A DNA stretch of 64,000 bases from NCBI RefSeq assembly GCF_016863275.1, contig NZ_BOOO01000037.1:124001-188000 (forward strand), written 5' to 3'. The notes beneath the pieces are model-generated. The model worked only from the letters and a program-made list of their open reading frames with translations, was not told where the DNA came from and made no database searches. Origin of the DNA: Planotetraspora mira (lineage in GTDB: Bacteria > Actinomycetota > Actinomycetes > Streptosporangiales > Streptosporangiaceae). Of the stretch, positions 12,664 through 50,781 are shown piece after piece (within the stretch, counting starts at the first letter, position 1; each line of letters opens with the position of its first letter). The translations under genes and the position numbers were made by a program.

Positions 12664-12734
12664 GCGAGCGGGGCGGCCGTCGTTGCGATGCGCGTGTCGA
12701 GTCACCGAGGCGGACTCCTCTCCACCGGCGGCCG

Positions 12735-33240: not shown

Positions 33241-33944
33241 CCTCGCCCGCTGTCTACACGCTCGACCTCGCGCTGATCGAGGCGCGCGCCGCCGAGCTGG
33301 GCTGGGACAGCACCACCTTCGTGGCCGAAATCGGCGTCCATCCCCGTGAGCTGCATCGTGTGCTGCGCCCCGACCGCGTCACCCTCACGTGGCTGTGCGA
33401 GATTGCCAAACCTCTCGGGCTGCATCCGGCCGATCTGATCGCCGCTGTCCCGGCTGCAACAAGCGGACACGCTGCAGATGCCGACATACTTGAAGCACTG
33501 CTCGCCCCGCGTGCCCGACCCCGCCCAGTGTCGGTTGATACGTTGTCGATCGTGCTGCACTGGCCCGTGGATCGGGTCGTGACCGCCATGGATGCGCTCG
33601 CCCAGCGCCTGCAAAATAGCCCCTTCGCGTTGCTCCGTGAGCAGGACGGCTACCTCATCGCCAGCCGCTTTCCCAGCCCGTACGCCGCCAGCGCCTTACC
33701 CGCCATCCGCGCGCGAGCCAATCCACTTACCGCGGAAGACACCGTGCCCCTCATGGCGGCCCTGCATCAGGTGGGCCTGCTGATGCCGGAAGATGATCAG
33801 TCGTTGGAGGCCGCTGGTGTCGATCCGGTCATCTCCTCCTCCGTGCACCCCGACCTGCTATTCGCACTGTTGCTCACAGATGCACCCGCACCCTCCCGGC
33901 CCGACGGCACCAAGCCCGGAAATGGCCACGGTGGAGTTGCCTAA
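33237..33944 (+). CDS. Small accessory protein A: XRE-like plus winged-helix protein
   Basis: 235 residues, ATGA-coupled to the preceding gene. Residues 8-66 (IEARAAELGWDSTTFVAEIG, TLTWLCEIAKPLGLHPADLI) have the five-helix pattern of a Cro/C1-type HTH. Residues ~95-140 (LSIVLHWPVDRVVTAMDALA, then FALLREQDGYLIAS) look like a winged helix. Near the C-terminus SVHPDLLFALLLTD matches TLHPDVMFAFDLNE of the protein at 35075-36028, so the two small proteins are also paralogues. Probably a DNA-binding partner of large protein A. It ends 30 bases from a convergent gene. Confidence 0.6.
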   Translation: MTSPAVYTLDLALIEARAAELGWDSTTFVAEIGVHPRELHRVLRPDRVTLTWLCEIAKPLGLHPADLIAAVPAATSGHAADADILEALLAPRARPRPVSVDTLSIVLHWPVDRVVTAMDALAQRLQNSPFALLREQDGYLIASRFPSPYAASALPAIRARANPLTAEDTVPLMAALHQVGLLMPEDDQSLEAAGVDPVISSSVHPDLLFALLLTDAPAPSRPDGTKPGNGHGGVA

Positions 33945-33974
33945 TGGACCGCAATACGGCCATCCCGGCACCCA

Positions 33975-35078: not shown

Positions 35079-36028
35079 GGTCGTTCCCGGGAGGCTGGCC
35101 AGATGCTGCGACGTGCCGGATGCCGCTGCACTAAATAGGAGAGGATCCGCAGTCCGTCTCTGAAGAACCGGATGAGCTCCCACTGCCAGACGACCTTGAT
35201 GGAGCGCAGCTCACCGGCCACGCTGTGGCAAGGGGCCCGAAACTGCGACACGGGCGTGCTCTGGACGGCGGTCGTTGGCGCCTTCCTGGGAACGGGCATC
35301 GGCCTCTCGTTCAGGTCGAAGGCGAACATGACATCGGGGTGCAGGGTGAGCCTGATGCGTCGGTTCTCATCCTGGTGCGGGCTGGTGTCATCGGTGTTTG
35401 CATCGGCAGTGGCGATGCCGCGTTGCTTGAGGAGCGCGTGACAGGCGGGAGACAGAGTCACGGGCTGCCAGGAGGACGGGCGCTGGTGCCGCCGCACGGC
35501 GGCGACGAGTATCCCTGCCTCGCGCGTCGACACCTCGCCGCGACGGTTCAGTTGCCGGGCGGCCAGGCGACGAGCCACCTGCCCTGATAGCGCGTGTTGC
35601 TCCGGTTGCAGCATCACCAAGTCTCCGGCGCGCTCCAGGTGGTGGCCGCTGCCAGTCAAGACACGGTCCAGCGTCTGCTCTGCGGCGTGACATTGATGGG
35701 CGTCCCAGCCGAAGGCGTCCGTGATGTCCGCATCGGTCAGCGGGCCGAACGCGGCCAATGCCACATGTAGCGCTCGCGCGTCGGCATAGGGCTGCAGCAG
35801 CGCGGTTGGAGTGAACTGACCCGGGTTGTTGCCAGCTACACAGTGCCTCGCCGGCATATTCAGCATGATCTGCAAAGTGATCATCTGGGTGGCGGTCAGC
35901 GAGTCAGCATCGATGGCAGCGGCTTCGGATGCCGGAGGCGGACCGATGATGGCCGCCACTGCTGCGGCGAATTCACCGTCACCCCGTTCATGAGCGCGTC
36001 GCCAGAGCCGGCTGGCGTCGATGTTCAC
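35075..36028 (-). CDS. Small accessory protein B: winged-helix protein
   Basis: 317 residues, ATGA-linked on both sides. Residues ~85-145 (LHVALAAFGPLTDADITDAF, LERAGDLVMLQPEQ) look like a winged helix, and the stretch RLTLHPDVMFAFDLNERP matches the paralogue at 33237-33944. The N-terminus differs from that paralogue and lacks the XRE-like domain; the C-terminus is basic (IRFFRDGLRILSYLVQRHPA). Probably a DNA-binding partner of large protein B. No known family recognised. Confidence 0.55.
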   Translation of the reverse strand: MNIDASRLWRRAHERGDGEFAAAVAAIIGPPPASEAAAIDADSLTATQMITLQIMLNMPARHCVAGNNPGQFTPTALLQPYADARALHVALAAFGPLTDADITDAFGWDAHQCHAAEQTLDRVLTGSGHHLERAGDLVMLQPEQHALSGQVARRLAARQLNRRGEVSTREAGILVAAVRRHQRPSSWQPVTLSPACHALLKQRGIATADANTDDTSPHQDENRRIRLTLHPDVMFAFDLNERPMPVPRKAPTTAVQSTPVSQFRAPCHSVAGELRSIKVVWQWELIRFFRDGLRILSYLVQRHPARRSIWPASRERP

Positions 36029-37659
36029 GGCTCCCTCCGCGAGCGACTACGGCGCGGCCGCTCGCCAGGACGGCGTGGGTGCGTCGGTTCAGCAACCCAG
36101 AAACAGCGGGCCTGCAAGTGCCAGCCCATGCCGGGCTCGACCGGCAGGGGTTGGTCTAGATGTATGTCAGACCATTGTGCGTTGAATTTCAGAGTCCTTG
36201 CGCGTGGCCCAATGCCTGCGGCAAGGAAACGCGTATCCGAGCCGCCGCCTTGCACAGTGATGAGCGTGCGGGCGGCGACGAGCAGGTCCCTCCCGCACGC
36301 CGGAATGGGATAGTAGATCGTGGTCTCCCCTCGCTGACGCAGAGCTGACCCATCCGGGGCCAGGTCAGCTGCTTGGGCCAGGCTCAGCTCCCAGGCGGTC
36401 AGACCTGTGGACAGGTACGCCGCCAAGGCTCCGGCAGCGGCGGGATCGGAGACGTGCGTGCGGATCTGAGCTGCTGTTTCGGGTGTCAGCCGTGTCTGCC
36501 TCGTTTCCAGACCGCCTGCCTTGTCCACGTCGGGAGGCAGGTGCAGGTGCACACCGTGCAGCAGCAGCCCGGCCTGGGCGCCGCGCAGCAGCGCGATGGT
36601 GTGCTCATCGGAGCTGGCCTCCGCGATGAGAGCGAGGATGAAGCTGACGACCGCACCCTGATCCGGCCATGAGCGTGGCAGGTCGGAGGCCGTCGCCGGA
36701 AGCAGACCGATGGTGTGCTCCTCATCGTCAGCGTCGACGGGTTCGCCACTACGTGTCCGGGTGGCGGGAGATCCTGGAACGGCATGGCCGCCACGGGCAC
36801 GAGTCTCAGCGTTGTCCGTGCCGGAACGCTCACCTTGATCAGGCACCTCAAGGGACTGGCCGACCATTGCGTTCATCGGTGTGCCGGAAGACGGGCCAAC
36901 GTGCGAGCCGGCGCTTCTGAATGCGGGATGGGCAGACAAGAACCTGCATGCGGAGTCCATTGCCGAGGCATACAGCAGATCGACCCAGGCGAAGTTTTCG
37001 CGACTGAGCTCGCGCCGGGCATCGGCACGGAAGCGGAGCAGGCCGCTTCGGGGCACGCGCGGCAGCGGCTGGTTCATGAGGAGGTCCAGGTCCCGACGTT
37101 TCCAGTCAGGCACGATCGCACTGCACTCCATCGCTGGGGCGGCACACGGTGCGGCCTCGGACTCAGGTCCGGGCGCGAGGGCGTCCTCCAGCGATCGGCC
37201 CTGCTCCAGTCGCCGCAATGTGGCCTGCGGGATCAGATCGGACCAGTTCGCCGGTGGGCTAGCGTGCCAGACCAGCGTCAACGCCGCTCCTGACTCGGCG
37301 GCCAGGTGGGTGAGCCGCGCCACGACGGCTGCGGTCAGGAGGTGCGTCCGCAGCACCACGAGTCGGCGAATCTTTGCTGCGATCACCCACGCGGTGGCGG
37401 AGTGCCAAGCGGCGGCTGCCGCAGACCGGCCGTGGAGCACTACCGTCGGGCTCTTGCCCAACGCGACCAGGATATCCTGCGCGAGCGCGCTAAAGTGCTT
37501 GTGGCCCACTGTCGGATGAACGATCAGGACGCCGCGCACCGGGTCGTGAGCGGCCAGGATGGCGTGCGTGAGATGGTAATCATCGTGTGGATCCAGCAGG
37601 ATCGTCACTGATGTTGTGTCCGCAAACGGCTCCTGAACACCAGCGGCCGGGGTACTCAT
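36025..37659 (-). CDS. Large accessory protein B: pseudo-AAA domain plus integrase-like C-terminus
   Basis: 544 residues from the ATG at 37659, which overlaps the TniB stop. Residues 18-135 follow the TniB ATPase strand for strand (VLIVHPT, LAQDILVALGK, RRLVVLRTHLLTAAVVARL, ALTLVWHA), but the phosphate-binding loop reads LLDPHDDYHL and the Walker B carboxylates are lost. A variable middle segment (about 200-380) is followed by an integrase-like C-terminus (ALAAYLSTGLTAWELSLAQA, YPIPACGRDLLVAARTL). A duplicated, degenerate TniB fused to a recombinase fold is my reading; structure prediction would settle it. It occupies the operon slot where TniQ or TnsD is found in related transposons. Confidence 0.6.
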   Translation of the reverse strand: MSTPAAGVQEPFADTTSVTILLDPHDDYHLTHAILAAHDPVRGVLIVHPTVGHKHFSALAQDILVALGKSPTVVLHGRSAAAAAWHSATAWVIAAKIRRLVVLRTHLLTAAVVARLTHLAAESGAALTLVWHASPPANWSDLIPQATLRRLEQGRSLEDALAPGPESEAAPCAAPAMECSAIVPDWKRRDLDLLMNQPLPRVPRSGLLRFRADARRELSRENFAWVDLLYASAMDSACRFLSAHPAFRSAGSHVGPSSGTPMNAMVGQSLEVPDQGERSGTDNAETRARGGHAVPGSPATRTRSGEPVDADDEEHTIGLLPATASDLPRSWPDQGAVVSFILALIAEASSDEHTIALLRGAQAGLLLHGVHLHLPPDVDKAGGLETRQTRLTPETAAQIRTHVSDPAAAGALAAYLSTGLTAWELSLAQAADLAPDGSALRQRGETTIYYPIPACGRDLLVAARTLITVQGGGSDTRFLAAGIGPRARTLKFNAQWSDIHLDQPLPVEPGMGWHLQARCFWVAEPTHPRRPGERPRRSRSRREP

Positions 37660-38435
37660 GCGGTGTCCTGGTCGCCAAGCTTGTCCAACGCCCAGGCCAG
37701 CACCTCTTCGTCCACAGTGGTGCGCTGGAGGTGTTTCAGTGCTTTCACTGCCAAGACAGTGATGCTTGCCCACGCGCGGAAGTTGCCGTGCCCGGAGCGC
37801 CTGTTGGCCTGCAAGATGATCTCTAGGTCAGCCTTGGCCCAGATCGGGTGGTAGACCGGAATCACCGCCATCACCTCGGCAGGCGTCAGCGGAGCGAATT
37901 TCTGCCACAGCAGGATGCGTGAGGACAGCATGGGCTCGCGCCGCAGCACCTGGTAACAGTTCTTACCGCCGACGAAGACGATGGTGATGTCGGTTCGACG
38001 GTCATCCCATAGATGCCGCCACAGTTCGAAGCATTCGGTGGACAGCCACTGCGCCTCATCGCAGACCAGCACCCGGAACCGTTCCGACAGCGTGTCTTTG
38101 AGCAACGTGTCGAATTCCAGAGGGTGGGCCGGCTTGGGTCCCGGCAGTTCGAGAGCATCGAACAGAACGCCCCGGATGTCACGGGGGTAAGGGTGAGAGC
38201 GGAACTGCACGCGTATGGTGTCAGCTGGTGCCAGCTCGCGCAGCGAGGCGTTCACCGACAACGTCTTGCCGAGGCCAGCGTCGCCATACATGCACACCAT
38301 GGCACGCTCTTCGATCGCGATGGCCAGATTGTCCTGCGTGCGCTGCAGGGCCGCGGTGACCACCACGCTGGCGCCCTTCAAGCGGAGAAAATGATCATGA
38401 TCTTCACCTAGAGGATCCACGAAACCTGCGCTCAT
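37656..38435 (-). CDS. tniB: TniB/TnsC-type AAA ATPase of a transposon
   Basis: 259-residue ATP-binding target-selection regulator; in Tn5053/Tn7 relatives such proteins coat target DNA and activate the transposase. ATG 38435 follows GGAACGGAA. Walker A GDAGLGKT is at residues 51-58, Walker B RVLVCDEAQWL at 121-131 and sensor 1 IVFVGGKN at 152-159, so ATP binding and hydrolysis should be intact. The C-terminus (GNFRAWASITVLAVKALKHL) is the usual helical lid. It is coupled by ATGA overlaps to the short P-loop peptide upstream and to large protein B downstream. Confidence 0.88.
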   Translation of the reverse strand: MSAGFVDPLGEDHDHFLRLKGASVVVTAALQRTQDNLAIAIEERAMVCMYGDAGLGKTLSVNASLRELAPADTIRVQFRSHPYPRDIRGVLFDALELPGPKPAHPLEFDTLLKDTLSERFRVLVCDEAQWLSTECFELWRHLWDDRRTDITIVFVGGKNCYQVLRREPMLSSRILLWQKFAPLTPAEVMAVIPVYHPIWAKADLEIILQANRRSGHGNFRAWASITVLAVKALKHLQRTTVDEEVLAWALDKLGDQDTA

Positions 38436-38596
38436 GATGTTCCGTTCCGTCTGGTGCGGTACCACATAGCGGCTGACCATGTAGCGGTCGGCGCGGCGAG
38501 CGGCGCGTTCACCAACAGCGTCTTACCGAGCCCGGACTCGCCGAGCGCCCACGCGGTGCCGTTGTCATCGCGCAGGAGCCCCGAAACCACTTTCAT
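38432..38596 (-). CDS. 54-residue peptide with intact Walker A motif between tniA and tniB
   Basis: A short frame, easily missed, starts with an ATG overlapping the tniA stop and ends with a TGA overlapping the tniB ATG, so it is coupled on both sides. It reads MKVVSGLLRDDNGTAWALGE, then SGLGKTLLVNAPLAA, closely matching the P-loop region of TniB (GDAGLGKTLSVNASL). The remaining residues are not AAA-like. It is either the stump of a deleted duplicate of tniB kept in frame by the operon, or a small modulator. Its preserved coupling argues against simple decay, but nothing proves function. Confidence 0.5.
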   Translation of the reverse strand: MKVVSGLLRDDNGTAWALGESGLGKTLLVNAPLAAPTATWSAAMWYRTRRNGTS

Positions 38597-40314
38597 GGTT
38601 GGTCGCCCTGTTCACGTGTGGAGACTTGCTGTGTGGACTTCGGGAGAACCCAGCCCGGTGCTGGCGGCCTCAACGGGATGAGATTGGGACTGGCCTTCAG
38701 GGGCCGCTTGTCCCGCTCGGCCTGTTCCAACTCGATACTTGCTTCCAGCGAGGTCAGCGCGCCCAGCACACGTGGCGGCTCGGCCTGGGTGACGGCCCCA
38801 TAGCGGACCCTCCGCTTCTTTGCCGCCGCCTTGAGAATCTGGTTGACGCGTTTGCTCGCGGCGCGACGCGACGCCATTACCGCAGCGACCTGCTGCTTGG
38901 ACGCTTGGTCGGACAAGTAGGCCGGGCCTAGATGGCGGCCGGTAACCGCGTCGAACACCTCGACCTCATGGTCATGGTGTGGCATGTACCGCAGGCGCAC
39001 TTTCAGCCCAACACCGCACCTGCCCGTCATCCACTCCCCCGCGTACTTACGGCCACCCCACGACACTCCCTTGTCAGTGATCGTCCGCACGCGGCCGTCG
39101 TCCTCCAGCATGAACAGGCGCAGATCCTCGGCTGGGACGTCATCGATCGGCCAGGCATCTTCCTGCCATGCCTGGAGCGGGGTACGGCCGGACAGAGCGG
39201 GCTTGGGCAGGTCGACGTTCCATTCCCGCACCCAATCCAGCAAGTGCTCGACGAAATCCTCAAACATTAGCGCAGGCGCATCGGGATCGATGGGAGCGCC
39301 GTTCAGCTCAGTCGGCTGACCGGTGTAATGCGGCAGCGACTTGCAGAACATTGTCTGCACAGCCCCGTTCAACGCCTCCACCCGGCCCTTCAGGTGGGGG
39401 TGATAGCCGGGCAGGTCGCTCACGAGCACGGCGAAGCGGCCCAACGCCGTCCCCACCGTCTTGGACAAGAAATCCCGGCCCCGATCGATCCTCACGGCCG
39501 CCGGTACCCCCCCGAAGGGCCCGTACCGGTCATCACGCAGAATCGAGCTGCGCAACGCCGCCAGGATGTTACCCCGGTTGGGGTAGCTCGGCGTGATAGC
39601 CAGCCCGCAGATACCGTCGCTGGCACAGTCGATAAACCAGGTCACCCACGGCTTGCGCAACTGGCCATCAACGCAGACCTTCACCGGCAGCTCAACATGA
39701 TCGCCTTCCCAGACCGTGTTGCGGTGATGGCCTTCGCCGTCCGTCGGCCGCCGCAGGTAAACGTCGAAACGGCGGCGCGCCCGCTCACCTTTGCGGATGC
39801 CGGCCTTCTCCCCCGGCGTCAGCGCGGCGTCGACCGCTCGATACAAGGTGCGCAGGCTTGGGGCAGGCGGCCCGCCCCCTCGCTCCTGCTCAAGTAATTC
39901 CCGGTGGAGGCGAGCGCAGTTTCCCCCTAGCAACGCCAAGTGAGAAAGAAGGTCGTCGTTCATGGTGAACCGCCGACGCGACCGACGCTCCACCTCTCCC
40001 TCGGCCCGCGCACGAGCAAGCCATCGCCAAAGCGTTCGCGGCGCGGCTCCCACGCATGAGGCCATGAGCTCTATATGCGCGGACGACAATTCTTTGCGCG
40101 CATCCAACGCCATCAACCGCCGCGTCACCAGTCCGCGCAGCTCAAGCAAGGATTGCTGCTGCGGCTCGGCCTCTGATCCCCCAACGAAGGAGCCATCACG
40201 CGACCCAAGGACAGGGTCAGCTTCGAAAGGGAGACATCGCACAGGCCTCCGATCTGAGTGGCCGCACCACCACCGCTGGGGCAGCCACCTCGTCTGCCAA
40301 TAACCGCCAACCAA
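38593..40314 (-). CDS. tniA: TniA/TnsB/MuA-type DD(35)E transposase
   Basis: Transposase with an rve-fold catalytic core. In the longest frame (573 residues) the triad is Asp205 (EGDHVELPV), Asp277 (AVRIDRGRD) and Glu313 (GRVEALNG), exactly 35 residues between the last two. Residues 75-115 form an HTH (AHIELMASCVGAAPRTLWRW), and the C-terminal third has the Mu-type beta-barrel (GGRKYAGEWMTGRCGVGLKV, RYMPHHDHEVEVFD). The true start is uncertain: the first ~45 residues look non-native and a start nearer 40190 is possible. First gene of a six-gene coupled chain; transposase and ATPase thus come from one transcript. No tnsA-like endonuclease is visible, so replicative transposition as in Tn5053 is expected. 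Confidence 0.88.
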   Translation of the reverse strand: MVGGYWQTRWLPQRWWCGHSDRRPVRCLPFEADPVLGSRDGSFVGGSEAEPQQQSLLELRGLVTRRLMALDARKELSSAHIELMASCVGAAPRTLWRWLARARAEGEVERRSRRRFTMNDDLLSHLALLGGNCARLHRELLEQERGGGPPAPSLRTLYRAVDAALTPGEKAGIRKGERARRRFDVYLRRPTDGEGHHRNTVWEGDHVELPVKVCVDGQLRKPWVTWFIDCASDGICGLAITPSYPNRGNILAALRSSILRDDRYGPFGGVPAAVRIDRGRDFLSKTVGTALGRFAVLVSDLPGYHPHLKGRVEALNGAVQTMFCKSLPHYTGQPTELNGAPIDPDAPALMFEDFVEHLLDWVREWNVDLPKPALSGRTPLQAWQEDAWPIDDVPAEDLRLFMLEDDGRVRTITDKGVSWGGRKYAGEWMTGRCGVGLKVRLRYMPHHDHEVEVFDAVTGRHLGPAYLSDQASKQQVAAVMASRRAASKRVNQILKAAAKKRRVRYGAVTQAEPPRVLGALTSLEASIELEQAERDKRPLKASPNLIPLRPPAPGWVLPKSTQQVSTREQGDQP

Positions 40315-40426
40315 TACTCGGCACTACAGTGGCCCAGAGGACCACCTGACCACTGGTTGTGAAACCTCTGTCACAGTGAGCCACACTTTAGCTCCGCACA
40401 ACACCTGGTGCTAGGGAGGAACCAAG

Positions 40427-40801
40427 ATGGGGCGCCAAGAATCCTCCGCTGAATTCTCGGACCCAACACCCGTATTTCAGCCCCTCCAACTTCCTCCGCC
40501 CGCTTCCAACGCCTTCGACGTGCTGACCCGCCGCTGGGTGCCCCAAGTTCTCTACCTGCTGTGCCAACGCCAGGCGCGCTTCAGTGAACTTGCCCGTGCA
40601 CTGCCCACCATGTCACGCAGAGTTCTGATGCAGCGCCTGCGCCAACTTGAAGACGAACAACTGATCCAGCGCATCGTCACCCCCGGGCCTCCAACACGCA
40701 TCACATACGAGATCACGGATCTTGGCGCCGGACTGGGCGCCACACTCCGTCACGCCGAGATGTGGGGTGAGCGTTATCTCAAGGCCAGACCCTTGCCGTA
40801 A
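40427..40801 (+). CDS. HxlR-type winged-helix regulator
   Basis: 124 residues, ATG after GGGAGGAACC. The winged helix runs from ~30 to 115 (NAFDVLTRRWVPQVLYLLCQ, FSELARALPTMSRRVLMQRL, DEQLIQRIVTPG), matching HxlR/MarR-like repressors. The redox or ligand-sensing N-terminal cysteine common in HxlR proteins is absent. It is divergent from tniA with a 112-bp gap, so it probably controls tniA transcription. Confidence 0.85.
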   Translation: MGRQESSAEFSDPTPVFQPLQLPPPASNAFDVLTRRWVPQVLYLLCQRQARFSELARALPTMSRRVLMQRLRQLEDEQLIQRIVTPGPPTRITYEITDLGAGLGATLRHAEMWGERYLKARPLP

Positions 40802-41253: not shown

Positions 41254-42336
41254 GTGCGCCCATCTAGGCAGTTCCGCAGTCAGAGAAAGCGCGCTGACCA
41301 GCGCACTGACATCGTCTGGCAAATCTGGACTGACAGTTACGTGGCAATTCGCAGTAAAGCGGCTGGTGGCCGGCTCTCAGAGGCGCTGCGCTCGTACTCT
41401 CACGCTGCTGAGGCTGCGTCCCCGGCTTCGCGCCCGCCCGCTGCTAGAGCTCGCCCAGGCCTTAGCGAGCTCACCACGGTGCTCGCTGAGCTGACTCATC
41501 AGCTCGAGCAGGCGCAAAGTGGCGCGTTGGCGCAGATCGACGCCGCAGAGCAGGAAGCCTCAGAGGCCCGCAACCTCGCAGAGACGGCAGAGCAACAGGC
41601 CGCACAGGCAGAGCGAGCTCGCCGCCAGGCGGTTGCGGCCGAGCGCGTCGCCCACAATAGACAGCTCGAGGCAGAGCGGCGGCTGGATGATACGCGCACC
41701 GATACCGAACGGATCCGGACCGTAGCGTGGCAACAGGTGGCCGAGCACGAGGCGGCTCGTGGCGGTGCGGAGGCTGCCCTTGATGCCGCCCGTTCTGCCC
41801 AGGCTGACCTAACTGACCAGCGAGATTCGGCCTTGCGAACCGCCGATGAGTTGCGCGCTTCTCAGCTGATCCAGGCAAAACAGCTCGAAGCACTGCGGCG
41901 CGCTCTCGCCGAGGCACGCGCCGCATACGATGCGCGCGCGGATCGGCTAACCCTCGCCGAGCAGGCTCTTGCCGAGGCCGCTGCCGATAAGGCAGCGCTG
42001 CGCGAGCAGGTGAGCGCCGCGCTGGCGCGAGCAGAAACTGCAGAGACCGAACGAGATCGCGCCCGAGCTCAGGCCGAGCAAGCCGCTGCAGAGGCCCGGG
42101 GAGACATCCACAATCTGCGCGCCGATGCGGATCGTCACTTGACCGTGATCACCACGTCCCATCAGGCTGAATTGGCGGCGCTGAGGGCGAGTGCCCAGGA
42201 CGCCCGTGTCCGGGCCGAACGCGCCGAGGCGCAGGCCGACGCCGCTGAACTTCAGCGCCAGATTTTCGCCCGTCAACTTCATGATCTTCGCGCTGAGCCT
42301 GACATCTCGTCAGCTGCAGCGGGCGGGCAGGCCTAA
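41254..42336 (+). CDS. KfrA-like coiled-coil DNA-binding protein
   Basis: 360 residues from a GTG. Residues 1-60 form a short globular head (TDIVWQIWTDSYVAIRSKAA), and residues ~70-345 are one long Ala/Glu/Arg heptad coiled coil (ERARRQAVAAERVAHNRQLE, AEQALAEAAADKAALREQVS). This head-plus-rod layout is that of plasmid KfrA and related DNA-organising proteins, although the canonical KfrA N-terminal domain is only partly recognisable. The array of hairpin repeats begins 55 bases downstream and the large palindrome lies upstream, so either is a candidate binding target. Function is inferred. Confidence 0.65.
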   Translation: MRPSRQFRSQRKRADQRTDIVWQIWTDSYVAIRSKAAGGRLSEALRSYSHAAEAASPASRPPAARARPGLSELTTVLAELTHQLEQAQSGALAQIDAAEQEASEARNLAETAEQQAAQAERARRQAVAAERVAHNRQLEAERRLDDTRTDTERIRTVAWQQVAEHEAARGGAEAALDAARSAQADLTDQRDSALRTADELRASQLIQAKQLEALRRALAEARAAYDARADRLTLAEQALAEAAADKAALREQVSAALARAETAETERDRARAQAEQAAAEARGDIHNLRADADRHLTVITTSHQAELAALRASAQDARVRAERAEAQADAAELQRQIFARQLHDLRAEPDISSAAAGGQA

Positions 42337-42390
42337 GCGTGGGCAAGGTCGCCAGGTGGAGACCGCGACGTGATCCGGGTGTCCCCAGAT

Positions 42391-44099
42391 GCCTCGATGA
42401 AGGACGGCGCGAACAAACGCCGCGATTGGCACAGCGACGTTCATCTACCCGGGCTGTGGCGAGCCTCAATGAAGGGCGGCGCCATAGAGCGCCGCGATCC
42501 GTACATTACGGCCATGCCGACCAGGTCAACGATGCCTCGATGAAGGACGATACAAACGAGCACCGCGATTCACTGGCCTCGGAACAACGTTCAACCTGCC
42601 GAAGCCTCGATGAAGGGCGGCGCGAACAAACGCCGCGACGCGAGCTTCTGGCCTGCACGCTGAATACCACGAGGCATACCTCGCGACACCGCTCACTCTC
42701 TGGTCTCGTAACACGTTTCCAGGCCTCGTTGAAGGACGGCGCCAAAAGCGCCGAGACTTCCTGTGCACGAGCATTGCCGTGACGCAGGTCTCTCCCTGAT
42801 GAAGGGCGGCGCCCAAGAGCGCCGCGATCGGGGGACGAAACCGAAGACGCCGGCACGGTCAAGCCTCGATGAAGAGCGGCACTAACGAGCTCCGGATTAG
42901 TCTCGTCCTCCGCGCCCCAGGATAAGGGTCTGACCTGGATGAAGGGCGTCGCACACGAGCGCCGCGACCCCGGCAGGCTGGCCAACCACTCGAGATAGGG
43001 CAAGCCTCGATGAAAGGCGGCGCCGATCAGCGCCGCAAGAACAGCCCCGTGAGATTGTCGCCAACCCCGTCCCCGCCTCGATGAAGGAAGCGAGCGCCGG
43101 GATGTGGTCCTGTAGTGGTCGTATGCCCATGCGCCCTCGCCTCGACTAAGGGCGGCGCCGACGAGCGTCTGCCGGGTGGACGTCAGTGGCCGGCTTGAAG
43201 CCTCGATGGAACGGCGGCGCCCACGGGCACCGCGATACCCGGGTGGCAGGTCGGACCTGCCCGCTTACAAGATGCCTCGATGAAGAGCGGCGCTCTGGAG
43301 CGCCGCGACCGGTCCATGAGGGAGGGTTGCATGGGCAGGAGTCGGCCTCGATGAAGGGCGGAGCTTTGGAGCGCCGCGACGTGTCGCCCACGGTAGCGAA
43401 CACCGCTGGAGCGTTATGCCTCGGTGGAGGGCGGCACCCAAGAGCGCCGTGACAACGTCTCGGAGCCGGCCGCACCGACGTAGAGGTTGCCTCGATGAAG
43501 AGCGGCGCTCTGGAGCGCCGCGACCTCCAAGACAGTGACCCTCTCTATGGATTATGTGACGCCTCGATGAAGGCGGCGCTCCCAAGCGCCGCGACGCCAC
43601 CGGACACAACACTGCCAGAATCGGCGTCTGGCCTCGATGAAGGGCGGCGCCAACAAGAACCGCGATAGGGCACCGGCACCGTCGCCACCACCGCCCGATG
43701 GCCGCCTTGATGAAGGGCGGCGCTCAGGAGCGCCACGACTGGGACGCCCGGATCGACTGGGTGGAATGGGACACCGCGCCTCGATGAAAGGGGCGCCGAC
43801 GAGCGCCGCCACTGGAGCTTGGGGTGCTGCTTGGGCCCATGGATCGGGCCTCGATGAAGGGTGGCGCCGCACAAGCGCCGCGACGGTCGACGGGGCCTCC
43901 ATGCGGCAGTGCGATAGTTGCCCTCGATGAAGGGTGGAGCCCGCGAGCGCCACGACCTCGGCGTCCTCCTGGTCGTGTACGGCTACTTCGCGCCTTGATG
44001 AAGGGCGGCGCCCACGAGCGCCCCGACGCGGTTCACCGTCGTGCACGTGGGTTCGGCCTGCGGGCCTCGATGAAGGGCAGCACCCACGAGCGCGCGCTT
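42391..44099. CRISPR. CRISPR-like array, 24 degenerate ~36-bp repeats, no cas genes
   Basis: Twenty-four units start with variants of GCCTCGATGAAG and end in variants of AGCGCCGCGAC with a dyad between (for example GCGGCGCT-CTGG-AGCGCCGC). First bases: 42391, 42463, 42534, 42604, 42723, 42793, 42863, 42933, 43004, 43075, 43139, 43200, 43274, 43345, 43418, 43489, 43561, 43631, 43704, 43778, 43848, 43921, 43992, 44064. Spacers are 34-38 bp except one of 83 (after unit 4, probably a lost unit) and one of 25; they look unrelated to each other. Repeats differ at several positions throughout, unlike ordinary CRISPR; units 13 and 16 are identical, and units 1 and 4 share a loop. No clear AT-rich leader and no cas gene are seen in the window. 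Orientation undetermined. Confidence 0.65.
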
Positions 44100-44228
44100 A
44101 ATCACACTTTCGTTGTGACTTACTAACGAATGGCCAAGACGGTCCCCGAAGTACGCTAACGCCGCGCGGCTTTTGGGCGATCTGCGTAGTGAACGGCATC
44201 AGGACCTTCGACCCGAAAGAGGGCTTGC

Positions 44229-44738
44229 ATGGCTGAAGACAGCAAGTCCGCCCGGTACAGCGAACACCTGGATGTTCTGCTTGCGTTGATTACCTACTTC
44301 AGCCTCGCGGAGTGGCGCAGCCGCTCTCCGTATTGGCTGGCCAAAGACCTCGGCCTCAGCATGCCGATGGTCATGTCGGCACTGGACGCGTTCCCTGGTC
44401 TCTTCCGGAAGAGTCGCAAGGTGCACCCGACCGACGTCGGCGACCAACCCGCCTACACGCTGCATGCACGTTACGCGCGTCGTCGAGAGCGGACGCCGAT
44501 GTCTCCCGGAGGGGACGAATCGACATCGAGTACCCCTACTCCCCCGCGGCGCGGGTCTAGCGAGGAACTCGATCCTGACACCCTTCGCGCGCTCCTGGAT
44601 TTCGTAGTCGAACAGGCCAGAGCGGAGCGCGAATCGGATAGGCACGCACGGGCTCAGATCTGGCTACGGGTGGGTGTGATCGTGGCCGCGGTCAGCAGTC
44701 TGCTCACCGCAGTCATCCAGCTGTTCATTGCGGCGTGA
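44229..44738 (+). CDS. Winged-helix-like protein with C-terminal membrane helix
   Basis: 169 residues. Residues 10-85 look like a winged helix (SEHLDVLLALITYFSLAEWR, YWLAKDLGLSMPMVMSALDA). A Ser/Thr/Pro linker (residues 95-112) leads to a helix and one predicted membrane segment at the end (VGVIVAAVSSLLTAVIQLF). GAAAGAGG precedes the ATG. It follows the repeat array by 130 bases and precedes the unknown three-gene operon on the same strand by about 290 bases. No family recognised; a membrane-tethered regulator is possible. Confidence 0.6.
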   Translation: MAEDSKSARYSEHLDVLLALITYFSLAEWRSRSPYWLAKDLGLSMPMVMSALDAFPGLFRKSRKVHPTDVGDQPAYTLHARYARRRERTPMSPGGDESTSSTPTPPRRGSSEELDPDTLRALLDFVVEQARAERESDRHARAQIWLRVGVIVAAVSSLLTAVIQLFIAA

Positions 44739-45029
44739 TCAGCAGCCCGGGGAGTGGATGGAGGCTGGTGCCGCCACTTACGACAACCTTGTACACACCC
44801 ACTCTTTTCCGGATTCCTAATCCTGTGCTACTTCGCCGACCGCGCCTCGGCCTGATCGCTGTAGTGATAGGCAATGTGTCCGCGCCTTGCTGGCCATGGC
44901 CGTTAATTTTACCGATGCGCGGTTTGTGCTGTTTAGTCCGAAGGCGTACGCGGCCTTTGAGCATGCGGTGGAACATCCAAATCAGTGACGCCTGACATTA
45001 TCTGTAACTGAAAAGAAAGAAAAGGATTC

Positions 45030-48000
45030 GTGGATAAGATCCACGGTGCGGCAAATAATGGTCCCATGTCGGCCGATGTCATCCGCGTTCCAATCGTCGA
45101 GTTCATGGTGGTCCGCTCTCCGGAGCCGGTCGGCACCCTGGCCTCCTACCGTCACTTCATCCGCGACGAGATCAGCCGCGCGCCGGTGCTCACCCATGTG
45201 CCGCCACCCGACGCCTATTCGGTCACCCGGGTCTCGCCGATCGGTCGGCTGGTCTATGACCTGGTCTTCTGCCGTGGTTTATCCGACGCCGACTTTCCGG
45301 GGGCGCTCAAGGCGGAACTGCTCGCCCGGCTGGAGCCCAGCCGGGCGCACTGCCCGAGGCAGGGAGAGGATCCCGGGCCGCTGCGGCTCGTCCTCGAAGA
45401 CCTTGAGCAGCACGCGTACCTGCTGGAAGGCGAGGACTACTACATCCTGCCCGACACGCTTCGGCAGCTGGCCGAGCACCCGTTCATCGCGGACCTAATC
45501 GCCCTGGGTCCGGTGCTGGAACGGGCGCTGGATCACGACGACATAGCCGTTCTGCTGAGCGACGTGACCGCCGTCCTGCGCGGGACGCCGGTCGACCAGG
45601 TGGTCTTCGAAAACGGCTACACCTCGCCCGGCTTCGCCGAGGCCAAGCGGAGCCTGTTCGACGTGCTCTACCTGCTCTACCTGCTGCGCAAGTGGACGCG
45701 GGTCAACCTGACCGGCATCCTCTCCGGTCTCCGCGTGCTCCACGTGCTGGAGGCGCTCGCCTTCGACGTGGTCTATGAGCGGGTACGCGCCGGAGGAACC
45801 GACCCCACCGACGGCACGATCCTTACGACGCTCGCGCAGTACGTGCCCGACCTGGCTGGCTGGGACCCCGCGTCCCCCGTGCCCGGAATGCCACTCGTCG
45901 CCGACAAGCACGCGCTGGAGACCCTGCTTACGGCCACCCCGGTGATCCATCCGCTGTTCTCCCGGCTTAACCGGTTCACCCGCCCCTTCAACGACATCAA
46001 GCCGATCGGCGTCGGCGACCTCAAGGTTGTCAAGCAGTGGCTGCGCGGCTACACCGTCGGCGAGATCGCGCACGTCGACACCGTCCTGCGCAGCGAATTC
46101 AAGTCGCGGGTACACCGCCGGCTGGAGAAGACCGAGGACGTCTTCTCACTCACCCGGGAGCAGCAGAACGACGTCCAGCGGGACACCCAGACCACGGACC
46201 GCTTCGAGCTCAAACGTGAGGCCGAGGACGTCGTGAAGACGGACCTCAGCGCCAACGCGGGGCTCAGCGTCAACGTCAACTACCAGGGCACCGGATACAA
46301 CATCGCGTCCAGCGTCACCGGCGGCTTCGCCTACGCCCGGTCGGCCACCGAGACCGCCCGGATCGCCACCACGTACGCCCGCGACGTCGTCGACAAGGCG
46401 GTCAGCCGGATCCAGAACAGGGTCGTGCAGCAGCGCACGACCACCCAGCTGTTCGAAACCGAGGAGACCAACACCCACACCTACGACAACCGCGAGGGCG
46501 ACGAGCACGTCTCCGGCCTTTACTACTGGCTGGACAAGAACTACCGCGCCCAGGTGTACAACTTCGGCAAGCGCATGATGTTCGAGTTCGTCATCCCCGA
46601 ACCGGCGGCCTTCCTCGTCGAGTCTCGCCTGCGGGCGTTCGAGGCCACCCTGGAGATGCCGACGCATCCCGTCGAGCCGCCCGAGGAGACACTCCCGCAA
46701 AGCGTGCTCGACCTCGACCCCGCCACGATCGACGAGGTGGAGTTCCGCCGCCTGTCCCGTGTCTACGACCTCACGGACTTCACCTACCCGGCCGAAGAAA
46801 TCAAGGTCGACTTCGTCAACGCGAGCACCGGCCGCAACTACTTCAACGACAGCCAGGTCGACTCGAACACCTGGCAGGCCAGGACGTACCAGTGCCGGCT
46901 CAACGCGAAGGACTACGTCATCACCAACCTGGTGGTGACGGGCTACATCTACTACTGGGGCGCCAACGACACGAGCCCCTGGTTCAACGAGCAGAACACC
47001 TTCGACGCGTACGTGGACGGCCACCGCTACGCGCACGACGTCGACAACGCCAGCGAGCGCTGGTTCCTCACCCCCAGGGTCTACCCCGGCGAGGACGCGC
47101 CGCCGCTTCGCGACCAGCAGGTCAGCCTGGTGCTGGGATTCTGGGACGTGGCGCAGTTCGACCTGAGCGTGTTCGCTGAGCTCAAGCTGTCGGACACCGC
47201 CCTCGGCGACTGGCGCGACAAGGTCTACCAGCACATCCGCGACATAGAGCAGAAGCGCGTGGACGCGATCAACGACCTGCGCAAGCAGACGTACCAGAGC
47301 GAACTGTCCGCCTACAAGGAGCGGGTCGCCGAGATCCGCTCGCTGGCCGTCAACGAGATCCTCCAGGGCCAGTCCGAGGCGGCCAACCGGCAGGTGATCC
47401 TCCGCGAGCTCAAGCGGCTCTGCCTGTCGATGCTCGCCAGAGAGTTCGACTTCGCGGCCGAGGACGACATCCTGACCGACCTCGACGACACCGGCAGCCG
47501 CCCGGTCAAGTCGGAGTTCCGCCGGTTCCGGGTCACCGAGGAGCCCGACGAGAAGGGCGTGCCGCAGCCGTCCGCGTTCTACGAGCTCGGGACGAAGCAG
47601 CTGGACTTTCCCGTGCCCATCGTCGCCACGGCACGCCAGAAGGGAAGGTACGTCCAGTTTCTGGAGCAGGCGTTTGAGTGGCACCAGCTCGCGTACATCT
47701 GTTACCCCTACTTCTGGGCGACGCCGCCACGGTGGATCGAGCTGATGAACCGCTCCGACCGCGCCGACCCGTTCCTCAGCGAGTTCCTGCAGGCCGGTTC
47801 GGCCCGCGTCCTGCTCGCCGTGACCCCCAAGTACGACTGCGCGGTCCAGCACTACCTCGAAACCGGCGAGCCGTGGTTCGACGACGACCCCCCGGTCATC
47901 GGCGACCCGCTGTTCATCCCGCTCCACCAGGAGCTGCGCCGCCGCCAGGACGACCGGGCCGGCGCCGAGCCCGACGGCGAGTACTGGGACTTCACGCTGC

Positions 48001-48065
48001 CGACCTCGCTGGTGTACCTCCAGGACAGCAGCACCGCGCTGCCGCCGCTGCTCGACGAGGAGTAG
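45030..48065 (+). CDS. Large protein of unknown function, first gene of a three-gene operon
   Basis: 1011 residues from a GTG after AAAGGA; an ATG at 45066 is an alternative start without a ribosome site. No signal peptide. Residues ~390-480 are helix-rich (EKTEDVFSLTREQQNDVQRD, ETARIATTYARDVVDKAVSR), followed by EHVSGLYYWLDKNYRAQVYN and KRMMFEFVIPEPAAF. Residues ~730-800 form another long helix (KVYQHIRDIEQKRVDAINDL), and the C-terminus is WH/Tyr-rich (LEQAFEWHQLAYICYPYFWA). No catalytic motif or Cas/RuvC pattern is visible. Two bases separate it from the next gene. Assembly or structural roles are possible; I do not recognise the family. Confidence 0.75.
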   Translation: MDKIHGAANNGPMSADVIRVPIVEFMVVRSPEPVGTLASYRHFIRDEISRAPVLTHVPPPDAYSVTRVSPIGRLVYDLVFCRGLSDADFPGALKAELLARLEPSRAHCPRQGEDPGPLRLVLEDLEQHAYLLEGEDYYILPDTLRQLAEHPFIADLIALGPVLERALDHDDIAVLLSDVTAVLRGTPVDQVVFENGYTSPGFAEAKRSLFDVLYLLYLLRKWTRVNLTGILSGLRVLHVLEALAFDVVYERVRAGGTDPTDGTILTTLAQYVPDLAGWDPASPVPGMPLVADKHALETLLTATPVIHPLFSRLNRFTRPFNDIKPIGVGDLKVVKQWLRGYTVGEIAHVDTVLRSEFKSRVHRRLEKTEDVFSLTREQQNDVQRDTQTTDRFELKREAEDVVKTDLSANAGLSVNVNYQGTGYNIASSVTGGFAYARSATETARIATTYARDVVDKAVSRIQNRVVQQRTTTQLFETEETNTHTYDNREGDEHVSGLYYWLDKNYRAQVYNFGKRMMFEFVIPEPAAFLVESRLRAFEATLEMPTHPVEPPEETLPQSVLDLDPATIDEVEFRRLSRVYDLTDFTYPAEEIKVDFVNASTGRNYFNDSQVDSNTWQARTYQCRLNAKDYVITNLVVTGYIYYWGANDTSPWFNEQNTFDAYVDGHRYAHDVDNASERWFLTPRVYPGEDAPPLRDQQVSLVLGFWDVAQFDLSVFAELKLSDTALGDWRDKVYQHIRDIEQKRVDAINDLRKQTYQSELSAYKERVAEIRSLAVNEILQGQSEAANRQVILRELKRLCLSMLAREFDFAAEDDILTDLDDTGSRPVKSEFRRFRVTEEPDEKGVPQPSAFYELGTKQLDFPVPIVATARQKGRYVQFLEQAFEWHQLAYICYPYFWATPPRWIELMNRSDRADPFLSEFLQAGSARVLLAVTPKYDCAVQHYLETGEPWFDDDPPVIGDPLFIPLHQELRRRQDDRAGAEPDGEYWDFTLPTSLVYLQDSSTALPPLLDEE

Positions 48066-48067
48066 CC

Positions 48068-49714
48068 GTGGAGGAGGCCGACGGCATCGAGATCGTCCCC
48101 GGCCCGAGCCGCTTCTTCGACGACGGCGCCCTGATGTCCTCGCCCGAGGCGGCGCCGCCTTCCGTGGGCGATTCGATCGCCTGGGTACGCCGGGTGGCCG
48201 TCTACGAAGCCGCGCTGGCCAAGGAGTACCGCCTGATCCGCATGTCGCTGCCGGACCGCCCCCGGCCGCACCACCCGGTCACCGTGGACGGCCGGACCGT
48301 GGACCTGGTGTACGACGCCACACTCGACCGGCAACTCCACGGCCTGTACGTCGGCCACGGCTGGCCGGCCATCCTGGCCGTACAAGCCGCCCTGGAACGA
48401 GCCGCCACCAGCTACCCCAGCCGGAAGCTGCATCCGTGGAAGGTGGTCAAGGACTTCGCCGAGTACGCGATCACGGCACTCTGGACGCGGGTCCGCGCAG
48501 CGCTGGCCCAACTGGACCGGATGGCCACCGACGAACTCGCCCTCCAGCTCAACCTGAGCGCCAACCTGGTCAACGAGACCTGGCAGCTGCTCGGCGTCAC
48601 CACGAGCGACAAGGACGAGCACGGGCAGGAGCACCGGACACCGAACATGACGGCGTCCTTGGACACCGTGACATGGACGAAGAAGACCTTCTACCGGCTG
48701 ACGGAACCGAAGCCGCTGCAGAGCATCATGGAGCTGATGCCGAGAGCGGTCGAGATGCGCCGGCGGCTCGGCGAGATCAAGCAGAGCCTGGTGGCCATCT
48801 CCGACACGATCGAGTGGGGCCGTCAGGAGGCCTCGGGAGCCAACTTCCCGGGCGACGTCAGCATGAAGCTGAGCCTGCAGCAACTGCTCGCCGAGGCGGA
48901 CCGGGTCACCGCTGAACTCGAGGGCGTGCTGACCCGGATCCACAAGGTGACCCCGCTCGCGATCCTCGTCCTGCCGTTCCTCCAGGAGCCGGTCACCCAG
49001 CTCGCCGTGGAACAGTCCGTCGGCGAGGTGCTAATCCAGTTCCTCGGCGAGGCCGAGCGCATCGTCAAGGGCCTGCCCCAGGAGGGGAGCTGGGTGGCGC
49101 GGATGACGCAGGACGAGCGGTCCCCGGAAACCCAGGTGCTCGACCTGGCAGTCACCGGAGCGATCGGTGACGTCCGCTTCCTGAGCATGCTCAGCGAGCG
49201 GACCCTCGACCGGCTCGTCGAGGCCGACGCCGTACCGAAGGACAGCTTCGAGTACGCGGTCTGGGCGCACTACAAACGGCAGCTGATCATCCGCCTGGCG
49301 ATCGAGAACAAGAAGGCGGAGTTCTGGCAGAGCATCGGCTCGTTCCTGGTCAAGGCGGCCACGCTGGTCACGCTTCTGCTGGTCAGAGCCCCTGTCGGGA
49401 GCTTCGCCGCCCGTGTCGCCACTGCCCTCAACGTCGGCATGATGCTGTTCCAATGCTTCACGGTGGCACATCAGCTCGCCCAGCTCGACCAGCAGCTCGC
49501 CCAAGCCATGGCCGAGGTGGACCGGCGCAGCGCGGCCGAGATCGCCCACGTGGCCGAACTCCTCGCCAGCCGGCGCGACTTCGAGCCGCAGCTGGAGCGC
49601 GCGATCGTGACCGAGATCGGGCTGATCGTGGTCGCCGGGGCCTGGCCGCAGTTCCGCGAGATGATGCACATGCGCGGCTATTACTTCGACCTCCAGACCC
49701 TCCTGGAACCATGA
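48068..49714 (+). CDS. Unknown protein with helical core and hydrophobic C-terminal region
   Basis: 548 residues from the GTG two bases after the previous stop. Mostly helical (KPLQSIMELMPRAVEMRRRL, LSLQQLLAEADRVTAELEGV). A hydrophobic stretch at about residues 435-475 (VKAATLVTLLLVRAPVGSFA, NVGMMLFQCFTVAHQLAQL) could be a membrane hairpin, followed by an amphipathic helix. Its stop overlaps the next start (ATGA). It probably forms a complex with its two operon partners. No family recognised. Confidence 0.72.
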   Translation: MEEADGIEIVPGPSRFFDDGALMSSPEAAPPSVGDSIAWVRRVAVYEAALAKEYRLIRMSLPDRPRPHHPVTVDGRTVDLVYDATLDRQLHGLYVGHGWPAILAVQAALERAATSYPSRKLHPWKVVKDFAEYAITALWTRVRAALAQLDRMATDELALQLNLSANLVNETWQLLGVTTSDKDEHGQEHRTPNMTASLDTVTWTKKTFYRLTEPKPLQSIMELMPRAVEMRRRLGEIKQSLVAISDTIEWGRQEASGANFPGDVSMKLSLQQLLAEADRVTAELEGVLTRIHKVTPLAILVLPFLQEPVTQLAVEQSVGEVLIQFLGEAERIVKGLPQEGSWVARMTQDERSPETQVLDLAVTGAIGDVRFLSMLSERTLDRLVEADAVPKDSFEYAVWAHYKRQLIIRLAIENKKAEFWQSIGSFLVKAATLVTLLLVRAPVGSFAARVATALNVGMMLFQCFTVAHQLAQLDQQLAQAMAEVDRRSAAEIAHVAELLASRRDFEPQLERAIVTEIGLIVVAGAWPQFREMMHMRGYYFDLQTLLEP

Positions 49715-50781
49715 TGGGCCTCACGAAGGCCGACGTGGCCGCGATCGCCAAGAACGCCGACAGCTCGATGTCCACCAAAATCGTCAAGACGCTCGCCCAC
49801 CACGGCACCAAACCGGCAGCCGTCGCCCACGCGCTGGCGCTCACCCCGATGTCGGCCCCGCAGCGCCGCAAGCTGCTGTACGCCCTCGTCAAAAGCTCCC
49901 CCGAGGGGGCGGCGCGCCTGAGCCTCCTCGCCAACGTGGACGCCCGCCTCCGCGTCGAACTGCCGACCCGGCTGGCGAACACCCCCCTCACCCTGGTGAA
50001 CTTCGGCGTCTCCACCACCGACGAGATGGCCGACCTCATCACCGCACGACTCACCCGCATGGAAACCGGGGCGGCTTCCCTGGCAGAGTTCCAGGCCGGG
50101 CTCGACGGCTGGCGCCGCAACATCGTCGGCAGCGTCCTGTTCGAGCGCCTGATCAAGTACGACCCCCACCTGAGCCTCTTCATCAACAAGTACGGCACCG
50201 ACTTCATCCGCATCATCAACAACGACATCGCCGACAAACCACGAGCCCTGCTCGGCGTGGACGGCAAAGCGCGCACCGTCTCCGAGCTGTTCGGCCCACC
50301 GCGGAAAGTCGTCAAGGTAGCCCTCGTCGGCCCCGACGACGTCACCCGGGAATTCACCGACTTCGGGCAACTCGCCGTTAATCCCCAAGACTGGTGGGCT
50401 TTCCTCCCCATTGAACTGAAACTGGAACGAGCGCTCGCGGGCGTGGCCGGCCAGTTCAGCGAGTTCCGCCCCCGCCTCTCCGTCGCCAAATCAATGATTG
50501 CCACGGTTATCGAGGGCGGCGAAGAGGTGCAACACATCATCAAACCAGCTCAGCTGGTGTTCCTCCGCCACGACCTCGGGCAAACCGTGATTGCCCCCAC
50601 CAGCGCCAAACAAATCGCCGCTATCCGCGCATCGGGCCCAATCGACCCTTCTTCAATAGCCTCCATCGTGGATTTTGGCCCCGCTTTCAGCCACAAACAC
50701 CAGTCGATGTACTACCGCGCCCGAGTTCTGGTCGACCGCCGCTGGCTCGAAGAGCTGATAATGCCGTTGACCGACCCATGA
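49711..50781 (+). CDS. Unknown protein, third gene of the operon
   Basis: 356 residues, ATGA overlap with the preceding gene. The N-terminal ~90 residues are helical with an Ala-rich, possibly DNA- or protein-binding pattern (KNADSSMSTKIVKTLAHHGT, SAPQRRKLLYALVKSSPEGA). The middle has FINKYGTDFIRIINNDIADK, and the C-terminus ends LVDRRWLEELIMPLTDP. No metal-binding or nucleotide-binding motif seen. Convergent with, and directly adjacent to, the ROK remnant. Confidence 0.7.
   Translation: MMGLTKADVAAIAKNADSSMSTKIVKTLAHHGTKPAAVAHALALTPMSAPQRRKLLYALVKSSPEGAARLSLLANVDARLRVELPTRLANTPLTLVNFGVSTTDEMADLITARLTRMETGAASLAEFQAGLDGWRRNIVGSVLFERLIKYDPHLSLFINKYGTDFIRIINNDIADKPRALLGVDGKARTVSELFGPPRKVVKVALVGPDDVTREFTDFGQLAVNPQDWWAFLPIELKLERALAGVAGQFSEFRPRLSVAKSMIATVIEGGEEVQHIIKPAQLVFLRHDLGQTVIAPTSAKQIAAIRASGPIDPSSIASIVDFGPAFSHKHQSMYYRARVLVDRRWLEELIMPLTDP

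Follow-up and report, generated by a model that had tools for sequence, protein, structure and literature searches.

Within the 64,000-nt stretch of Planotetraspora mira DNA analysed here (the window) lies a CRISPR array of type I-G, the reading strand of which is the minus strand. It is most likely silent and decaying, since the genome yielded no I-G protein. Very probably it was left behind when the interference operon, together with any adaptation genes and leader still next to it, was deleted between 44099 and 44100. We call the array an orphan because Csb1, Csb2 and Cas1 are absent from the genome and the cas operon is missing between the array and its right flank. The original prediction was borne out in part, namely for an old CRISPR array with diverged repeats and no adjoining cas genes.

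Geometry of the array

42391-44099, minus strand (inferred crRNA strand): orphan type I-G CRISPR array with 24 diverged repeats of ~36 nt and 23 spacer intervals
42640-42722, minus strand: 83-nt interval between repeats r04 and r05
44064-44099, minus strand: last repeat (r24), its 3' end lost at the right-flank junction, where the cas operon is absent

Both counts given in the original prediction, 24 units of ~36 bp and spacers of 34-38 nt in 21 of 23 cases, were reproduced, and the array has the direct repeats and unique spacers of regular length expected of CRISPR (36, 35, 34, 83, 36, 34, 35, 35, 35, 35, 26, 37, 35, 37, 35, 36, 35, 37, 38, 35, 36, 35 and 36 nt). The repeats are not near-identical, as 23 distinct sequences occur among the 24 and the mean pairwise identity is 0.79 (79%). 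This is not decisive against CRISPR, because the repeats of four cas-bearing relatives are not near-identical either. The minus-strand repeat consensus is GTCGCGGCGCTCGTGGGCGCCGCCCTTCATCGAGGC; when both strands were scanned, the best match to this 36-nt consensus elsewhere in the window was just 22/36, and all 23 matches in the window genome to R1, a covariance model built from the 24 window repeats, fell inside 42391-44099 (E up to 1e-4). Repeat r10 carries an internal deletion, and the 83-nt interval, judged from its length and a reading of its sequence by eye, probably consists of two spacers flanking a mostly deleted repeat. The array had no match in Rfam and, taken as a whole, none in plasmid sequences.

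Type I-G genes beside the same repeats in relatives

R1 was searched in five genomes of the genus and matched two, the window's own and that of P. phitsanulokensis NBRC 104273 (G002). In P. phitsanulokensis, R1-type repeats occur in three arrays, and cas7g, cas5/6g, cas3g and cas8g lie between the first and the second; the search for the same repeat beside cas genes in relatives, proposed earlier as a check, thus found a type I-G effector set. The 3' end of the minus-strand consensus is CCCTTCATCGAGGC, and the I-G repeats of Dactylosporangium, Phytohabitans, Actinoplanes and Salinispora end in CCCTTCATTGAGGC or CCCTTCATCGAGGC, so that the array belongs to the repeat family with the conserved I-G 3' end on the crRNA strand. 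We infer that the crRNA strand is the minus strand from the side of the protospacer flank and from the direction of the cas operon in relatives.

Csb1 and Csb2 were both found in five genomes (G002, G078, G142, G165 and G336). The first four have the four effector genes (split over two contigs in G165), no local cas1, and repeats with a pairwise identity of 0.79-0.86. Their effector genes contain no internal stops and are under purifying selection, with dN/dS of 0.10-0.30 in 21 gene pairs; eight effector pairs with G336 gave 0.44-0.54, with synonymous sites near saturation. The array in G078, G142 and G165 begins 10-17 nt past the cas8g stop, which leaves no space for the usual leader; in P. 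phitsanulokensis a cas4-like fragment lies in the interval from cas8g to the array. The loci with cas1 have ~170-273 nt from the cas2 match to the array in 9 of 10 cases, the tenth (L218) showing 29 nt with the same crude boundary. In G336, cas4, cas1 and cas2 matches lie beside one array, and 26 identical repeats are found on two contigs. On its MAG contig (L103:14026-15874) the cas4-cas1 fusion occupies two different reading frames despite the uniform repeats, which may reflect a recent loss or an assembly error.

Spacers and their phage targets

42570-42603, minus strand: spacer s3, whose plus strand encodes TGLGTTFNLP, a motif of phage major head protein genes
42758-42793, minus strand: spacer s5, with three changed residues relative to its G165 relative
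42829-42862, minus strand: spacer s6 (DETEDAGTVK), with a homologous spacer in P. phitsanulokensis; 5 viral contigs, best protospacer identity 28/34
43525-43560, minus strand: spacer s16 (SKTVTLSMDYVT), with a homologous spacer in G142; 4 viral contigs, best protospacer identity 29/36

Among 238 spacer entries from ten arrays or array remnants, a set that includes post-array ends and over-long intervals with repeat pieces, 36 pairs reached a local score of 16, whereas none is expected from shuffles and the reverse-complement control gave none. Six spacer-derived codon patterns were scanned against IMG/VR and four matched (92, 5, 4 and 5 contigs). Three of these come from the five window motifs scanned (s3, s6 and s16 matched; s17 and s19 had no viral match in IMG/VR), and the fourth, SYKGFGLRVVM, comes from the relatives' arrays. 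The s3 motif was present in 92 viral contigs, 91 of them usable, with a best protospacer identity of 31/34. Two of the encoded proteins were compared with PHROGs, and each proved to be a major head protein. The motif of s5 is presumably integrase-like, and its residue changes are probably drift.

On the plus strand, the 3' flank of the protospacers is NTA in four unrelated motif families: T occupies +2 in 91/91, 5/5, 4/4 and 5/5 contigs and A occupies +3 in 78/91, 5/5, 4/4 and 5/5, the remaining 13 of 91 s3 contigs having NTT. This shared flank suggests a PAM of 5'-TAN on the crRNA strand, with evidence that counts as four sites and not as more than 100, because the 91 contigs are related and, in our own reading, the TA falls within a Tyr codon in each family. 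The array thus holds mobile-element spacers whose targets lie next to a candidate PAM, among the five window motifs scanned, and the earlier proposal to compare spacers with phage sequences bore fruit. We also noticed that in the G002 and G165 arrays (L064 and L101, from two genera) several spacers match one major head protein site (SYKGFGLRVVME-like), on the same strand and, in ungapped cases, with the same end base.

The original prediction had also raised a non-CRISPR array of protein-binding sites with CRISPR-like geometry. A structural, centromere-like or protein-binding array would fit the diverged repeats, the adjoining coiled-coil gene and the ten neighbouring proteins, none of which had a Cas match. 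However, cas genes adjoin the same repeats in relatives, the 36-nt repeat has the I-G ending, and the phage motifs in several spacers have one common flank. The relatives' cas genes and the phage motifs led us to reject centromere-like, attachment-site and protein-binding arrays alike, and we consider the chance that the array is not CRISPR to be minute.

Flanks and the missing cas operon

41254-42336, plus strand: gene for a coiled-coil protein, on the side inferred to be leader-distal; its C-terminal 294 aa share 81% identity with the P. phitsanulokensis counterpart
44100-44380, no strand assigned: right flank, 284 aligned columns, 90% identical to the region upstream of P. phitsanulokensis cas7g
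44229-44738, plus strand: flanking ORF of 169 aa, function unassigned, its start region common to P. phitsanulokensis

In P. phitsanulokensis, ~7.1 kb including the whole cas operon lie between the array and the sequence that corresponds to the right flank, and these are absent from the window. Genome-wide searches of the window genome gave no match for Csb1, Csb2 or Cas1 and two weak matches for Cas3g below the cut-off, so that none of Csb1, Csb2 and Cas3g was found over the cut-off; the Csb2 search was positive in 6 of 13 genomes. For the Cas4-Cas1/Cas2 adaptation module the searched gene was Cas1, which is absent genome-wide.

The coiled-coil gene is 87% identical to its P. phitsanulokensis counterpart over 936 bases, its N-terminal part differs, and the protein (41254-42336) had no Pfam match. 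We rejected the idea of a conserved coiled-coil neighbour, since in G078 and G142 the ORFs closest to the arrays have no similarity to this gene. Beside the I-G locus of P. phitsanulokensis (L064:542-2257 and 11669-14271) an AbiJ-NTD3/DUF559 gene adjoins the small third array; a DUF3800 gene is present as well, and so, judged by eye, is another partial copy of the coiled-coil gene. This arrangement suggests a segmental duplication of the array plus the gene.

Several other genes lie near the array. A Mu-type transposase (38593-40314) and an AAA ATPase (37656-38480) have adjoining unassigned ORFs at 33975-37773, one of which likely has a second copy at 31303-33240 (by eye); the gene at 40427-40801 encodes an HxlR regulator. 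The coiled-coil gene loses its homology near 41449, and the transposase element (31303-40801) may therefore have truncated it. The Mu-type transposase and AAA genes (37656-40314) led us to consider a CRISPR-associated transposon, which would combine transposase genes and an array with a nuclease-deficient Cas effector; in a search that covered I-G effectors, the genome gave none over the cut-off. The interval 45030-50781 holds three large ORFs (1011, 678 and 442 aa) that follow and overlap one another and possibly form an undescribed defence operon; the 1011-aa ORF had no Pfam match, and the first two gave weak PADLOC matches (PglZ, 0.0089; LeoBC, 0.078).

Constraint on the repeats

42391-42402, minus strand: the conserved 12 nt in the example repeat r01; positions 1-12, assigned as the 8-nt crRNA 5' handle plus the 4-nt linker to the hairpin base

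Relative to the consensus, the repeats carry 105 substitutions, 9 deletions, and insertions in 2 repeats. Decay of the array is dominated by substitutions, about ten per indel, and therefore preserved lengths alone are no proof of selection; the earlier argument that unselected decay would have blurred the lengths is weak for this reason.

The handle and linker were assigned to positions 1-12 of the plus-strand repeat with the lengths given for Csb2 in the portions of PMC9638904 available to us. The share of sites that depart from the consensus is 5% (5.2%) at these positions, ~10% for the stem and 30% for the loop (Fisher p 0.047), with conservation at positions 1-12 biased upward as units were located partly through them, a bias that the few over-long gaps bound. 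Four relatives show the same contrast between positions 1-12 and the stem (p 0.00023 to 0.016).

The dyad described originally is recognisable, but pairing in the array alone is not clearly above that of shuffled columns: 76 of 500 shuffles reached its paired fraction and 51 of 500 its double changes, and on a MAFFT alignment 9 of 500 and 43 of 500 did so. The suggested check for compensatory changes gave a divided answer. P. phitsanulokensis shows significant stem covariation, and so do the four cas-bearing relatives when pooled (13 double changes in a 7-bp stem where 5.2 would be expected, reached in 1 of 500 shuffles); the window array does not, nor do G078, G142 or G165 taken singly.

Toward the end inferred to be leader-distal, the window repeats become more diverged (rho -0.55, p 0.005), and such a gradient was significant in two of six arrays tested, the other being one P. 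phitsanulokensis array (-0.40). Slow acquisition with errors building along the array was tried as an explanation and rejected, as neighbouring repeats have no lag-1 similarity (p 0.10-0.64, five genomes).

These patterns bear on whether the array still works, that is, whether it gives rise to transcripts that a nuclease not recognised here processes in trans, with the handle and stem under present selection. Such a reading gains from the greater conservation of positions 1-12 and from the length of the array, which has one over-long interval only. Yet handle conservation is equally expected as an inheritance from a cas-bearing stage, the stem pairing is as ambiguous as described above, and no sigma-70-type promoter-like site was found at 42300-44800, which is a weak test in this phylum. 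Given also the lack of Csb2, Csb1 and Cas1 matches and the weak, sub-threshold Cas3g, maintenance for processing in trans, as originally proposed, is unsupported in the window genome, and we think it quite improbable that the array is functional.

Cas1 and repeat uniformity

Diverged repeats are not peculiar to the window array. In the family, Csb1 was found in 41 of 341 genomes and the R1 repeat in 10 of 341 (E up to 1e-8). Up to 20 kb around Csb1 were sampled, Cas1 was searched genome-wide in all 41 Csb1 genomes, and arrays with at least 5 repeats were parsed in 35 of them (G036, G206, G228, G235, G254 and G298 left out), those within ~10 kb of Csb1 being counted as associated with it. With the window genome, the values of which were entered by hand, this made 36 genomes.

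The median fraction of repeats identical to the consensus was 0.81 where a full-length Cas1 match exists (13 genomes), 0.10 where the Cas1 matches are low-scoring only (13 genomes) and 0.06 where there is no Cas1 match (10 genomes); in a test that ignores phylogeny, genomes with full-length Cas1 differ from the rest with p=6e-6 (p 6e-5 via mean mismatch). Three genera (g2, g55 and g58) hold both states, and each Cas1-bearing genome there is more uniform than every other. There are exceptions: G009 and G210 are diverged despite a full Cas1 (0.28 and 0.33), and among genomes without one G020 is fairly uniform (0.62) and G092 and G261 are intermediate (0.48 and 0.44). The association suggests that I-G arrays in this family stay uniform mainly where the genome keeps a full-length copy of Cas1, the enzyme responsible for inserting new spacers. 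Because Cas1 lies near Csb1 in just 3 of the 13 genomes (G053, G333 and G336), a causal role for Cas1 in trans is something we infer; in the other ten, either Cas1 would work at a distance from the I-G locus, or its presence and the uniform repeats would have a common cause. The best match of the full-length Cas1 in G041 is Cas1b, not Cas1g.

The low-scoring matches could have been divergent Cas1 proteins serving the I-G arrays in trans. We rejected this: all nine low-scoring proteins scanned are Cas1 by Pfam, and five of five of these are Cas1e, of type I-E, by PADLOC. Genomes with low-scoring Cas1 only have diverged I-G repeats, like genomes without any Cas1 match. Of the four cas-bearing relatives, G142 and G165 have a low-scoring Cas1 elsewhere, and G002 and G078 have none.

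A comparison set of 11 cas1-bearing I-G loci, namely ten from outside the family (one scan of named genomes) and G336, had mismatches of 0-0.08 per site throughout, and in 8 of 11 over half the repeats are identical to the consensus (exceptions L221, 3/7; L223, 2/4; L225, 11/28). The four relatives without a local cas1 had mismatches of 0.075-0.149, and at most a quarter of the repeats per array equal the consensus. As these operon-bearing relatives are as diverged as the window array, its divergence would date mainly from before the deletion. Among the family's Csb1 loci L232-L263, many showed no cas1, cas2 or cas4 match in the fetched stretch, and their arrays are diverged and often lie on both sides of the operon.

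Spacer drift and shared repeat-spacer units

43561-43630, minus strand: unit r17+s17, common to P. phitsanulokensis, with an identical repeat including its own 1-nt deletion, a spacer matching at 34/35 and different neighbours

Although the flanks are 87-90% identical, spacers are scarcely common to P. phitsanulokensis: one of the 22 single-length spacers is shared at 85% identity or more. The window spacers are thus not the fixed block that had been named as a sign of a structural repeat.

Five spacer pairs reach at least 93% identity, and in each the repeats match too (0.94-1.00, against a random mean of 0.79 and a 95th percentile of 0.92), while 0 of 8 comparable neighbour pairs match (0.39-0.60). 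Three of these pairs are duplications within a genome, and the other two link one genome with another. At 85-88% spacer identity there are three more pairs, and their repeats are unlike (0.58-0.68). The pattern suggests that repeat variants can travel together with their spacers. Hypermutation specific to repeats was rejected, since the five most similar spacer pairs carry matching repeats.

In the cas-bearing relatives, 61 of 103 differences between homologous spacers fall in one codon position (50.4 expected, p 0.0002, 13 pairs). As the differences follow codons, the spacers of those relatives have drifted little, and the pattern is as expected from independent capture from related phages with little change since. 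For the window spacers the figure is 25 of 44 (21.9 expected, p 0.07, 6 pairs), with no significant difference between the two patterns (p 0.20). Simulated drift of ~0.10-0.12 per site had fitted an earlier cut of 23 spacer pairs, some of them misaligned. Repeats beside spacers with recognisable homologues have diverged as much as other repeats. If decay had been neutral once adaptation was lost, spacers should have drifted as much as repeats; neutral decay does not account for all of these observations.

One could therefore ask whether divergence is favoured where Cas1 is missing, with unlike repeats blocking recombinational spacer loss and the arrays acting as exchangeable repeat-spacer cassettes. 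The five closely similar spacer pairs with matching repeats and unmatched neighbours point this way, as do the spacers of cas-bearing arrays, which seem less drifted than the repeats; moreover, degenerate repeats prevent spacer loss in CreTA-derived constructs, according to the sections of PMC9458426 that we could consult. However, drift by itself also yields divergence, the repeats are unlike in the three spacer pairs at 85-88%, duplication inside one genome accounts for three of the five shared units, and the drift estimate comes from 13 non-independent pairs, with no effect in the earlier cut. We regard favoured divergence as possible, though rather doubtful.

Discussion

The account that we prefer for the window is an array stranded by deletion. 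In a functional stage, the minus strand of the array would have been transcribed, a Csb2 cut 4 nt past the hairpin would have produced the 8-nt handle ATCGAGGC, and the crRNA would have been loaded into an I-G Cascade that recruits Cas3 to phage DNA at 5'-TAN. With the loss of a fitting Cas1, new leader-repeat copies would have ceased, and we propose that for want of such fresh copies the repeats accumulated substitutions. Selection on crRNA processing would have preserved the handle, the linker and partly the stem while the loop drifted. The deletion would then have removed cas7g, cas5/6g, cas3g and cas8g from beside the array.

A broader reading, which we put forward tentatively and think rather unlikely, is that a large set of the family's I-G systems is interference-only, with libraries of diverged cassettes copied and exchanged without Cas1, the window array being an end state. 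It would be similarly speculative to say of these systems that adaptation genes and leader were lost, that effectors were kept under purifying selection and that divergence shields the spacers from deletion. If true, immune memory would spread and reshuffle between arrays as whole cassettes with no need for Cas1.

On its own, an orphan and probably decaying I-G array is a modest find. The wider pattern, in which I-G loci are interference-only and their repeats are diverged yet constrained, is worth testing, as it offers a natural experiment on repeat likeness within one family and one effector type in both Cas1 states, and makes testable the tolerance of Csb2 for repeat variation, immunity without adaptation and the advantage of repeat divergence. 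Array finders that require identical repeats may overlook or split diverged arrays, and diverged natural repeats, if still working, would be useful in stable multiplex guide arrays.

Comparison with known systems

The array resembles type I-G systems in that Csb1, Csb2, Cas3g and Cas8g adjoin it in relatives. For the I-G system of Thioalkalivibrio sulfidiphilus, the consulted parts of PMC9638904 describe a 36-nt repeat, an 8-nt handle and Csb2 cleavage 4 nt beyond the hairpin, in agreement with the handle and 4-nt linker assigned here. In contrast to type I-G, the window holds an array alone, its nearest relatives have no adjoining cas1 or cas2, and the repeats are diverged. The PAM also differs, 5'-TAN being suggested here and 5'-TTN being given for I-G in the same portion of PMC9638904.

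Our literature search, with subscription journals mostly outside it, returned no paper on diverged repeats in I-G loci lacking adaptation genes. As far as searched, the association of Cas1 with uniformity within I-G and the recurrence of repeat-spacer units in new contexts are new. Type VII systems, whose hosts are archaeal, have Cas14 as their effector, whereas the effector of the relatives here is I-G and Cas1-bearing relatives allow a direct comparison. Type VII arrays are a precedent for diverged repeats without adaptation, as they have no adaptation module and their repeats carry multiple substitutions, by the account in the accessible part of PMC12669027.

Degenerate leader-distal repeats, as treated by CRISPRDetect in the passages seen of PMC4869251, are comparable in that divergence here is higher at the inferred leader-distal end; unlike them, the window repeats are diverged along the whole array and not in the trailer alone. 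Recombinational spacer loss and terminal-repeat polymorphism are reviewed in PMC8047081, as far as its available text goes. Finally, the array is like CreTA, for which the excerpted text of PMC9458426 reports degenerate CRISPR repeats that lie beside a Class 1 system and resist recombination. In CreTA, by the same excerpts, one or two such repeats guard a toxin, whereas here they separate dozens of spacers, several of them with phage motifs.
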